Assembly (NCBI RefSeq): GCF_036417845.1
Contig: NC_089980.1
Span: 113,485,169 to 113,549,168, forward strand
Reading direction: 5' to 3'
DNA length: 64,000 nt
Origin: Apteryx mantelli
Taxonomy: Eukaryota; Chordata; Aves; Apterygiformes; Apterygidae
In this document: positions 6,812-64,000 of the stretch, piece by piece
How positions within the stretch are numbered: the stretch's first letter is position 1
Layout of the letters: every line of letters starts with the position of its first letter
Made by a program: the position numbers and the translations under genes
Notes under the pieces: generated by a model
Seen by the model: the letters and a program-made list of their open reading frames with translations, nothing else
Database searches by the model: none
Told to the model about the DNA's origin: nothing

Positions 6812-7335
6812 GAATTAGCTAAAGAGAACATACCAACAAGTTGGTTGAAAGAATTCTGATGGAAAGAGATTGCCTGTAGAGCAAGCATTCCTCAAGGATT
6901 GGTCTTGGAAGTGATCTCATATAACAGTTTAATTAATGACCTTGGCAGAAATAGTAGGAATGTGGTAATGAAATTTGCTGATGACAAAATTTGGGAAGTA
7001 TTATCAATACAAAAAAGAAATTGGACGACCTCAAGGACTGCAGTAATAGAATAGGATTACATTTAATAATGAAAAGTGCCAGGTCATGCATTTAGGGACT
7101 AATAAGAATTTCTGCCACGTGCTGAGGACTCATCAGTTGGAAATGACAACAAAGGAGAATGATCTGGATCAGTCAGGGTATGACAATAGGAATACTCTGT
7201 GAAAAGGGCAGGTAACCCAAGTATGTATCTGGTAAAGTAGTTCCAGTAGAGAAAGGTGAATATTAGGTCCAGTGTAGAGTGCACAGAGGGTGAGACCCTC
7301 ATCTGGAACACTGTAAATAGTTCTATTTATCTGTG
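6812..7335 (+). mobile_element. Ancient CR1 LINE RT fragment (sense)
   Basis: A plus-strand fragment of the CR1 reverse transcriptase region. Landmarks in order are the decayed VPQG block (ATTCCTCAAGGATTGGTCTTGG, about 6889-6910), TTAATTAATGACCTTGGCA (about 6930), the FADD block (AAATTTGCTGATGACA, about 6970), the GCCAGGTCATGCATTTAGGGAC block (about 7078) and GTGAGACCCTCATCTGGAACACTGT near 7290. Frames are broken and the catalytic DD region has lost bases after GATGACA. It lies close to the opposite-strand fragment ending near 6625 but has its own boundaries, so I treat it as a separate insertion. Confidence 0.85.
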
Positions 7336-59943: not shown

Positions 59944-60317
59944 GTGGCGCAAAGTCCAGATGGAGACCTGTAGCTAGTGTGTCCCCCAGGGGTCAATACT
60001 GGGTCCAGTATTGTTCAACTTCTTCATCAATGACCTGGATGAAGGGACAGAGCGCACCCTCAGCAAGTTTGCTGACGATACAAAACTGGGAGGAGTGGCC
60101 GATACGCCAGAGGGCTGTGCTGCCATTCAAAGAGACTTGGACAGGCTGGAGAGGTGGGCGGAGAGGAACCTCCTGAAGTTCAACAAAGGCAAGTGCAGGG
60201 TCCTGCACCTGGGGAGGAAAAACCCCAGGCACCAGTACAGGTTGGGGGTTGACCTGCTGGAAAGCAGCTCTGCAGAGAAGGACCTGGAGGTCCTGGTGGA
60301 CAAGAAGTAAACCATGA
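59944..60317 (+). mobile_element. Young CR1 RT fragment in plus orientation
   Basis: A 374-bp sense fragment of CR1 ORF2 covering the VPQG block to just past the region encoding [12 protein letters not shown]. Its open frame from 60011 includes FINDLDEGT and [13 protein letters not shown] and shares with the neighbouring full copy the unusual FNFFINDL, so the two belong to the same subfamily. Over about 99 residues it differs at about six positions. Damage: a 1-bp deletion near 59979 (CTAGTGTGTC versus CTAGCGGTGTC) and a TTA-to-TAA stop at 60308-60310. It is truncated at 59944 and cut on the right by the 3' end of the minus-strand CR1. Confidence 0.95.
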
Positions 60318-60367
60318 ATCACAGAATCGCTGAGGTTGGAAGGGACCTCTGGAGATCATCTAGTCCA

Positions 60368-60391
60368 ACACCCCTGCTCAAGCAGGGTCAC
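60368..60391 (-). promoter_or_regulatory. CR1 3' UTR hairpin
   Basis: Directly after the ORF2 stop, the minus strand reads CCCTGCTTGAGCAGGGG, which folds into a 7-bp stem (CCCTGCT/AGCAGGG) with a TG-type minimal loop. The CR1 3' UTR is short, about 75 nt from stop to terminus. In CR1 the conserved 3' end is thought to be the RT recognition site; the hairpin assignment to that role is inference. Confidence 0.6.
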
Positions 60392-63382
60392 CTAGAGCAC
60401 ATTGCACAGGATTGCATCCAGGCGCGTTTTGAATATCCCCAGAGAAGGAGACTCCACCACCTCTCTGGGCAACCTGTTCCAGTGCTCTGTCACCCTCACA
60501 GTGAAAAAGTTTTTCCTCATGTTCAGATGGAAGTGTCTGTGTTTCAGTTTGTGCCCATTTCCTCGCGTCCTGTCGCTCGGCACCACTGAAAAGAGTCTGG
60601 TCCCATCCTCTCGACACCCTCCCTTCAGATACTTGTACACGTTGATAAGATCTCCTCTCAGTCTTCTCTTCTCCAGGCTAAACAGGCCCAGCTCTCTCAG
60701 CCTTTCCTCATAAGAGAGATGCTCCAGTCCCCTAATCATCTTTGTGGCCCTTCGCTGGACTTGCTCCAGTAGTGCCACATCCCTCTTGTACTGGGGAGCC
60801 CAGAACTGGACACAGTACTCCAGATGGGGCCTCCCCAGGGCTGAGTAGAGGGGCAGGATCACCTCCCTTGACCTGCTGGCAACACTCTTCCTGATGCACC
60901 CCAGGATACCATTGGCCTTCTTGGCCACAAGGGCACATTGCTGCCTCATGCTTAACTTGGTGTCCACCAGCACTCCCAGGTCCTTCTCCGCAGAGCTGCT
61001 TTCCAGCAGGTCAACCCCCAACCTGTACTGGTGCATGGGGTTATTCCTCCCCAGGTGCAGGACCCTGCACTTGCCTTTGTTGAACTTCAGGAGGTTCCTC
61101 TCCGCCCACCTCTCCAGCCTGTCCAAGTCTCTTTGAATGGCAGCACAGCCCTCTGGCGTATCAGCCACTCCTCCCAGTTTTGTATCGTCAGCAAACTTGC
61201 TGAGGGTGCACTCTGTCCCTTCATCCAGGTCATTGATGAAGAAGTTGAACAAGACTTGACCCAGTACTGACCCCTGGGGGACACCGCTAGCTACAGGCCT
61301 CCAACTAGACTCTGTGCCACTGATCACAACTCTCTGAGCTCTGCCATTCAGCCAGTTCTCAGTCCACCTCACTGTCCACTCATCTAACCCACACTTCCTG
61401 AGCTTGTCTATGAGGATGCTATGGGAGACAGTGTCAAAAGCCTTGCTGAAGTCTAGGTAGACAACATCCACTGCTCTCCCCTCATCTACCCAGCCAGTCA
61501 TTCCATCAGAGAAGGCTATCAGATTGGTTAGGCATGATTTCCCCTTGGTGAAGCCATGCTGACTACTCCTGATCACCTTCTTGTCCTCCACATGCTTGGA
61601 GATGGCCTCCAGGATGAGCTGCTCCATCACCTTTCCAGGGATGGAGGTGAGGCTGACTGGCCTGTAGTTCCCTGCATCCTCCTTCTTGCCCTTTTTGAAG
61701 ACTGGCGTGACATTGGCTTTCTTCCAGTCCTCAGGCACCTCTCCTGTCCTCCATGACCTTTCAAAGATGATGGAGAGTGGCTTAGCAATAATGTCCGCCA
61801 GCTCCCTCAGCACTCGTGGGTGCATCCCATCAGGGCCCATGGATTTGTGGGTGTCAAGTTTGCTTAAATGATCTCTAACCTGATCCTCCTCGACCAAGGG
61901 AAAGTCTTCCTCTCTCCAGACTTTCTCTCTTGCCTCCAGGATCTGGGGTTCCTGAGGGCTGGCCTGAACAGTAAAGACTGAAGCAAAGAAGGCATTCAGT
62001 AACTCTGCCTTCTCTGTATCCTTCGTCACCAGGGCACCCACCCCATTCAGCAAAGGGCCCACATTTTCCCTCGTCTTCCTCTTGCTACTGATGTATTTGA
62101 AGAAGCCCTTCTTGCTGTCCTTGACATCTCTAGCCAGATTTAATTCCAAACGGGCCTTAGCCTTCCTCGTCGCATCCCTGCATACTCTGACAACGTTCCT
62201 GTATTCCTCCCAAGTGGCCTGTCCCCCTTTCCACTTTCTGTAGACTTCCTTCTTCTGGTTGAGTTTTGCCAGGAGCTCCTTGCTCATCCATGCAGGTCTC
62301 CTGCCTCCTTTGCTTGACTTCCTACTCATAGGGATGCACCGATCTTGAGCCTGGAGGAAGTGATGTTTGAATATTAACCAGCTCTCTTGAACACTCCTTC
62401 CTTCTAGGGCCCTCACCCATGGGATTACTCCAAGTAGGTCCCTGAAGAGGCCAAAGTTTGCTCTCCTGAAGTCCAGGGTTGCGATCCTACTTATTGCCCT
62501 GCCTCCTCCTCCTCGGATCCTGAACTCCACCATCTCATGGTCACTGCAGCCAAGGCAGCCCCCGACCTTCACATCTTCCACCAGTCCTTCTTTGTTTGTT
62601 AGTACGAGGTCCAGCAGCACACCTCTCCTTGTTGGCTCCTCCACCACCTGTGTCAAGAAGTTGTCACCAATGCTCTGCAGGAACCTCCAGGACTGTTTGT
62701 GCCTAGCTGTGTTGTCTTTCCAGCAGATATCGGGGTGGTTGAAGTCCCCCATGAGAACCAGGGTCTGGGATCGTGAGACTACTTCCAGCTGTCTGTAGAA
62801 GGCCTCATCGACTTCCTCTTCCTGATCAGGTGGCCTGTAGTAAACACCCACAACAGTGTCACCCATGCTAGCCTGCCCTTTGATCCTTACCCATAAGCTC
62901 TCGACTCGCTCTTCATCCACCCCTAGGCACAGCTCCATACATTCCAGTTGCTCTCTCACATAAAGAGCAACTCCACCACCTCGCTTTCCTGGCCTGTCTT
63001 TCCTAAAAAGCACATAGCCATCCATGACAGCACTCCAGTCATGCGAGCTATCCCACCATGTCTCTGTAATGGCAATGAGATCATGGCCCTGCGACCGCAC
63101 ACATATCTCTAGTTCTTCCTGTTTGTTCCCCAAGCTGCGTGCATTGGTGTACAGGCATTTCAGGGAGGTGATCAAGCATGCAGGTTTCCCAGGAGGGGTA
63201 AAAGAGGATCCTCCATAGCCACATCCCAGGCGCACTTCCCTGGCTGCATTCACCTGCTGGAGGCATCCTGACTTGAGCAGTCTTTTGCCAACTACCCTGG
63301 CACTATAACTCTCCCCTTCCCCCATCTTTCCTAGTTTAAAGCCCTCCTTACCAGGTTGGCCAACCTGTTGGCAAAGACACAC
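60392..63382 (-). CDS. CR1 ORF2: endonuclease and reverse transcriptase polyprotein
   Basis: A 996-codon uninterrupted frame. Residues 1-72 are a poorly conserved lead-in; the start Met is the first in frame and overlaps ORF1, so a later start is possible. Residues about 73-290 form an APE-type endonuclease: YTNARS (79-84), TETWW (106-110), YYRPP (181-185), GDFNHP (212-217) and SDHEM (280-284). Residues about 500-790 are the reverse transcriptase: [10 protein letters not shown] (571-580), YLDFSKAFD (642-650, catalytic D644), [10 protein letters not shown] (699-708) and FADD (730-733, catalytic D732/D733). The C-terminal part (about 830-996) carries the CR1-typical [12 protein letters not shown] and [10 protein letters not shown] blocks. 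All catalytic residues I can check are present. The length fits a full CR1 ORF2. It nicks target DNA and copies the CR1 RNA. Confidence 0.97.
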
Positions 63383-64000
63383 GTGCCCCGTCTCGTGAGG
63401 TGGATCCCATCTCTCCCCAGCAGTTGTCGATCTTCAAACAGGGTCCCATGGTCGTAGAAACCAAAACCCTGTTGCCAACACCAGCAGCGCAGCCAGTCAT
63501 TAACCTGGAAAGTCCGTCTCCTCCTCCTCTCATCCATCCCCCTCACTGGCAGGATTGAGGAGAAGATGACCTGGGCTCCCAGACCCTTGACCACCATCCC
63601 CAGAGCTCTGAAATCCTGCTTGATGGTCTCCAGTTTGCCCTTGGTGTCATTGGCGCCCACATGGAAGAGCAGCAGTGGGTAATAGTCTGAAGAATGGACG
63701 AGCCTAGGCAGTCTTTGCATGACATCTCTCACACGAGCCCCCGGCAGGCCACAAACCTCTCTAGACAAGAGGTCAGGTCGACAGATAGATGCCTCCGTCC
63801 CCTGCAGCAGGGAGTCCCCCACAACAATCACCCGCCGCTTTTTCCGGGCGTTCCGACAGGGCACAGGGTCTGTTGTCCCAGGTACTTCCCTGGCAGCCAT
63901 GCCCATCTCCTCCTCATCCTGGAGGGCACTAAACCTGTTCTTCAGCTTCAGGTCTTCAGGAGGAGTAGGAGCCTTTCTCCTCCCACGAGCAGTGACCAGT
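63331..64000 (-). CDS. CR1 ORF1 protein with SGNH esterase-like domain (partial)
   Basis: The frame ends at 63331 and is open to the window edge. Upstream of the first in-frame Met (63906) it continues through 31 more codons, including a [18 protein letters not shown] segment common before this domain in CR1 ORF1, so 63906 is not the true start. From that Met, VVGDSLLQG (GDS at 30-32), HVGANDTKG (GAND at 84-87) and GRDGIHLT (DGIH at 166-169) are the block I, III and V motifs of an SGNH hydrolase, with Ser, Asn, Asp and His present. ORF1 proteins of CR1 bind RNA and the esterase domain may act on lipids; neither activity is shown here. It overlaps the ORF2 frame by 52 nt in a different frame, suggesting coupled translation. 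Confidence 0.93.

Follow-up and report, generated by a model that had tools for sequence, protein, structure and literature searches.

A full-length CR1 element nested in an older CR1, probably in kiwi, and tandem 5' units in its family

We analysed a stretch of DNA of 64,000 nucleotides (the window). A CR1 long interspersed nuclear element (LINE) lies at its right edge on the minus strand and continues past position 64000 into the adjoining sequence. The locus around the element was fetched (L009), and window positions, extended beyond the edge where necessary, equal L009 positions plus 59000. A first-pass annotation had described a potentially retrotransposition-competent CR1 here and had proposed extending the sequence to the right. 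The extension reached the 5' end of the element at about 64863, with the start codon of open reading frame 1 (ORF1) inside it, and 5' truncation was not seen. The full length is about 4.55 kb, from about extended position 64863 down to 60315 (L009 5863-1315). Numbered along the window copy from its 5' end (E positions), the element consists of one 5' unit, ORF1 (ATG at E472, L009 5392), ORF2 (ATG at E1539), a 3' hairpin and an octamer tail (Table 1).

Table 1. Features of the CR1 element and its flank in the window (UTR, untranslated region; RT, reverse transcriptase).
Feature	Position	Strand	Remarks
CR1 3' UTR	60315..60391	-	CCCTGC/GCAGGG hairpin (short); the 3' end has about 1.5 octamer units (ATTCTGTG ATTC)
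ORF2, 977 codons from first ATG	60392..63325	-	APE-type endonuclease and RT; without stop or frameshift
Codon 690, RT motif B	61256..61258	-	glutamine; proline in nearly all homologues
ORF1, C-terminal 222 codons, SGNH/GDSL esterase	63331..64000	-	remainder outside the window: TGA at codon 84, ATG
191-codon ATG-started sub-ORF of ORF1	63331..63906	-	downstream of the TGA; esterase match retained
Older CR1 host, left part	59944..~60314	+	right part at L009 5864-6480 (extended 64864-65480)

The CR1 clade is recognized by an ORF2 with an APE-type endonuclease and RT, an ORF1 with an SGNH/GDSL esterase and an octamer-based 3' end. All three were found, and the identification of the element as a CR1 LINE is confirmed by the domains of both ORFs and by the 3' end. 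This end reads ...GATTCTGTGATTC, an octamer microsatellite and not poly-A, so that the proper 3' end claimed for the element is indeed that of a CR1, with a short octamer tail. The hairpin before it folds no more stably than shuffled sequences (z = 0.09), and an especially stable 3' hairpin is not supported.

We searched the genome that contains the window (1,504,198,195 bases in 408 contigs) with the 3' 1.2 kb of the element. Forty candidates were scored of 5,105, and 41 matches were listed, including the window copy and its short inverted neighbour. The search for copies of more than 97% identity thus returned 39 others with identities of 97-98%, and no other copy above 98% was listed from the 40 candidates scored. 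Two of the 39 (L021 on C383 and L030 on C379) have the same 3' flank; the assembly probably contains this one insertion twice, so that 39 may be 38. The copies whose ORFs are compared below were all chosen by their likeness to the window copy. The alignments of the 39 fetched copies all begin inside the element (E281-E3305) and end at E4544-4548, and the CR1 pattern of truncated 5' ends and intact 3' ends was found in 39 of 39; one of them, L040, really begins at the start of a 5' unit without a full unit. Tails were located by script in 33 of these 39 copies and are octamer-based, and the tail of the window copy is shorter than all 33.

ORF2 has neither stops nor frameshifts. As annotated, its open frame (60392-63382, minus strand) holds 996 codons, counted from a GTG; the first ATG (63325) gives 977. 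ORF1 ends with a TAG (63333-63331) followed by 5 nt and the ORF2 ATG, giving the junction TAG-GAAAG-ATG. Pfam matches above the cut-off were found for RVT_1 (108.3 bits), Exo_endo_phos (53.8) and Exo_endo_phos_2 (36.9), and the best PDB match is the LINE-1 ORF2 protein. At the catalytic positions of the endonuclease and RT, the residues are those of 90-99% of the non-kiwi homologues in the alignment, and the catalytic aspartates are intact. The annotation had all motifs in place, which holds for the catalytic residues but not for RT motif B, where codon 690 encodes glutamine. Among 240 aligned homologues, this position is proline in 222, leucine in 7, alanine in 2 and glutamine in 1, with 5 gaps and 3 not covered; proline also stands in this column of the printed L1 alignment. 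Because 40 other genome copies have proline (39) or serine (1) and never glutamine, P690Q is private to the window copy.

Up to the window edge, 222 codons of ORF1 are free of stops, with a match to Lipase_GDSL_2 above the Pfam cut-off (36.2), and to this extent the earlier description stands. However, the full ORF1 would span 353 codons and carries an in-frame TGA at codon 84 (extended 64143-64141, L009 5141-5143), about 140 bases beyond the edge. A stop in ORF1 outside the window was one of the observations by which the annotation itself proposed to judge competence, and because ORF1 carries such a stop, the claim fails on its own terms. In 27 copies listed, codon 84 is CGA in 17, TGA in 4, CGG in 2, CAA in 2 and not covered in 2. 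In the whole genome, the exact context of this codon was found at 545 sites with any codon, of which 22 have TGA.

We interpret the element, with a probability of about 0.82 for the reading as a whole, as a full-length, fairly recent bird CR1 insertion, most probably a CR1-Y in kiwi, which entered an older CR1 by target-primed reverse transcription and is probably not autonomously competent. Over the aligned parts, its ORF2 protein shares 93-97% identity with five from Apteryx owenii, and an ORF1 homologue of Struthio has 83% identity. We chose CR1-Y because Galbraith et al. (2021, PMC8665684) state that all full-length ratite CR1 were CR1-Y, and we call the insertion fairly recent because its private divergence is low. 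A lack of autonomy is probable because of the ORF1 TGA, the private motif B change and the single 5' unit.

Several points weigh against this interpretation. We infer both the species and the CR1-Y assignment. The 191-codon sub-ORF downstream of the TGA still matches the esterase domain. Codon 84 is a CpG site that is altered elsewhere too (TGA in 4 and CAA in 2 of the 25 readable copies), and recurrent mutation is therefore possible. P690Q alters the RT core, and its probable damage to the window copy is a prediction from sequence. Finally, a separate insertion carries the same ORF1 TGA, which would mean that a stop-bearing element may have been able to move, either in cis or helped by others.

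This separate insertion, the sister copy SIS (L049, C3:112733195-112740195), lies 0.81 Mb from the window copy and has different flanks. The two are 97.6% identical over 4,549 aligned columns and show no difference over E3-E369; since they differ by 2.4% overall, a mosaic or local conversion is possible. In an ORF1 tree of 25 copies, SIS is nearest to the window copy, joined with 100/99 support. It is conceivable, at rather long odds, that these copies belong to a sub-lineage that moves despite the TGA, by readthrough, by starting translation internally at the 191-codon esterase ORF or with proteins from other copies. Such a sub-lineage would account for the TGA shared by two grouped copies with different flanks, for its presence in two further copies (L010 and L054) and for the 22 genome copies with TGA in the exact context, of which contig C3 carries 10. 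However, the tree, which covers four TGA copies, does not support a single TGA clade: the four require 3 changes, and the starred branches force at least 2. Moreover, the site is a CpG, and TGA is a small minority (22 of 545 exact-context sites).

Contig C3 holds 9.4% of the bases and 10 of the 22 exact-context TGA copies, 9 of which lie within about 21 Mb (110.55-131.10 Mb). Because it also carries 10 of the 40 elements compared, a general abundance of longer CR1 on this contig may be all that lies behind the excess.

The first-pass annotation saw a candidate young or master copy. That the window copy is autonomous and currently competent, or a master, now appears very improbable. Its full length, open ORF2, intact catalytic residues and young family would agree with competence. 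The stop in ORF1, the private change in motif B and the presence of only one 5' unit speak against it, and so does the distance from the family. We compared each copy that spans ORF2 with the column majority, in which the window copy was counted and SIS was left out. The window copy differs at 58 of 2,934 ORF2 sites and the other 11 spanning copies at 30-64, and it is therefore no closer to the majority than its relatives. Young can be kept for the family, whereas a young master copy is rejected by this distance and by the ORF1 stop.

Open reading frames are ordinary in the family around the window copy. ORF2 is open in 8 of the 13 copies that span it (window copy and SIS counted), and the covered stretch of ORF2 is open in 20 of 28 partial copies. 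The full-length ORF1 is open in 15 of 20 other copies read, which were drawn from a set of 38 elements other than the window copy and SIS. A stop-free ORF2 is weak proof of very recent age: in a substitution-only simulation, ORF2 was still open in 31% of cases at 1% divergence and in 9% at 2%. Against 40 other copies of varying coverage, the window copy has 22 private sites (15 in ORF2, 6 in ORF1 and 1 in the 5' UTR). The private ORF2 changes comprise 10 replacements and 5 silent changes, a ratio that indicates no clear constraint since insertion. Five of these 15 sites lie within 12 bases of a glycine-rich stretch and may reflect one slippage event.

An older CR1 on the plus strand flanks both ends of the minus-strand element, which is thus nested in it in the opposite orientation. 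The left part of this host is 94.3% identical to the window element over 369 bp, and the right part aligns at 86% over 632 columns and runs to a CR1 3' end. Target-site duplications of CR1 are typically small or absent; here, the joined flanks are colinear with CR1 except at the junction, where a gap measures 1-3 nt depending on where the junction is placed. Compared with 41 copies, the left part is 91.9-94.3% identical (mean 93.0%), and the window element ranks first by a narrow margin. The right part is 84.2-87.1% identical to the same number of copies, and there the window element ranks seventh. Gene conversion between the host and the element, which was also considered, is not supported by these ranks. 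We dismiss as extremely unlikely that twin priming or template switching produced the inverted piece in the same event. The piece does lie directly against the 3' end of the element, and its left part is slightly closer to the window element than to any other copy. However, it resumes across the insertion up to a CR1 3' end, the joined flanks read as a single CR1, and the right part shows no special likeness to the window element.

The insertion of the window copy into the older host can be pictured as follows. A parent element would have been transcribed from one of its TATA-bearing 5' units, with the RNA beginning about 31 nt downstream of the TATA box. This single RNA would serve for both ORF1 and ORF2, across their short junction. 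RT would be primed on the 3' octamer tail, and insertion into the older, oppositely oriented CR1 would proceed by target-primed reverse transcription. The TATA box of the single remaining unit would give an RNA without any full unit.

The 5' UTR of this CR1 family is composed of tandem units, about 361-384 bp in length and all bearing a TATA box, and copies have 0, 1, 2 or 3 of them. The unit start is marked by GAGCGCAGC, and TATATAAG stands about 31 nt before it. The window copy has one full unit of about 377 bp, carrying TGTATAAG, then a 50-bp repeat of the unit start (94% identical) and then ORF1. Two units were found in L050, L052 and L053, and two with a truncated third in L051. The unit-start pattern occurs at 682 genome places within 2 mismatches. 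The first 100 exact places form 90 arrays, with one start in 81, two in 8 and three in 1, and the starts within these arrays are spaced by 361-384, once by 724.

On contig C1, an exact unit start lies upstream of 18 of 51 exact ORF1 starts. Twenty of the 33 without one were fetched, a choice that favours copies lacking units. By our own reading, 12 of these 20 begin within 4 nt of a unit start (7 without a full unit and 5 with one); the start lies inside a unit in 4 others, and the last 4 allowed no assignment. If truncation were even, simple arithmetic (18 of about 500 positions) would place 0.7 of 20 near a unit start. The distance from the TATA box to the next unit start is 31 nt in 6 of the 8 copies where it was found and 17 nt in 2. 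These copy starts and the TATA spacing fit an RNA that begins at the unit start.

Mouse LINE-1 carries tandem 5' UTR monomers in variable number ahead of ORF1. The CR1 family is alike in the variable number of its 5' units, a likeness of arrangement. However, mouse L1 belongs to another LINE clade, and the CR1 units carry a TATA box, mostly 31 nt before the next unit start. We lean somewhat towards the view that tandem 5' monomers with TATA boxes act as the promoter of the family, in convergence with mouse L1. On the pattern of units, each TATA box would start an RNA at the next unit, and each jump would shed at least one unit (three to two, one and finally zero). Lineages would then last only by regaining units, and the window copy would stand at the last promoter-bearing step. 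A limited search of the open-licence literature, mostly of titles and abstract openings, found no report of tandem 5' UTR monomers in CR1, which does not show their absence from print. The tandem units are unexpected, and they are the part of this family most worth following. If transcription data confirm the promoter, CR1 would join those LINE clades whose promoter is monomeric, and kiwi genomes would allow one to count how often promoter units are gained and lost.

Galbraith et al. reported high numbers of intact CR1 in kiwis, where CR1-Y expanded both before the recent speciation of these birds and in the course of it; a 3' hairpin and a microsatellite are features shared with the window copy (PMC8665684). 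Intact there means endonuclease and RT in one ORF, and the window copy satisfies this definition. The terms 'ORF1', 'UTR', 'promoter', 'monomer' and 'TATA' do not occur in the main text of that paper, which thus does not discuss, under these words, whether ORF1 is intact or how the 5' UTR is built. The open ORF2 is a poor guide to competence here, with ORF1 broken just outside the window edge. The window copy is complete but probably not autonomous, and it is an ordinary member of a family already known to have been active recently.

In chicken, CR1-B and CR1-F are about 4.5 kb long, with a 5' UTR, ORF1, ORF2 and 3' UTR and with subfamily-specific 5' UTRs (PMC2734521). The window element shares this length and layout. 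The main text of that paper has 'tandem' twice, with 'TATA' and 'monomer' absent. It reports only six full-length chicken elements with intact promoters, whereas a 26-base pattern of the ORF1 start was found here at 781 genome places within 2 mismatches, counted at the ORF1 start only. As a single copy, the window element has much company, since hundreds of places in this genome extend as far as the start of ORF1.

In the window as a whole, no tRNA was found by ARAGORN (bacterial code), and Rfam gave no match at gathering scores. Weak matches to CR1 ORF2 at 6860-7166 (40-44% identity) are probably an old CR1 remnant. Among the database homologues, a CR1-like ORF1 protein filed as Klebsiella pneumoniae (P0123) comes from a contig of 2.9 kb and seems to be animal contamination. 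In Grus japonensis, CR1-like ORF2 products (P0115, P0119 and others) are named 'mitochondrial enolase superfamily member 1', which is probably a misannotation.

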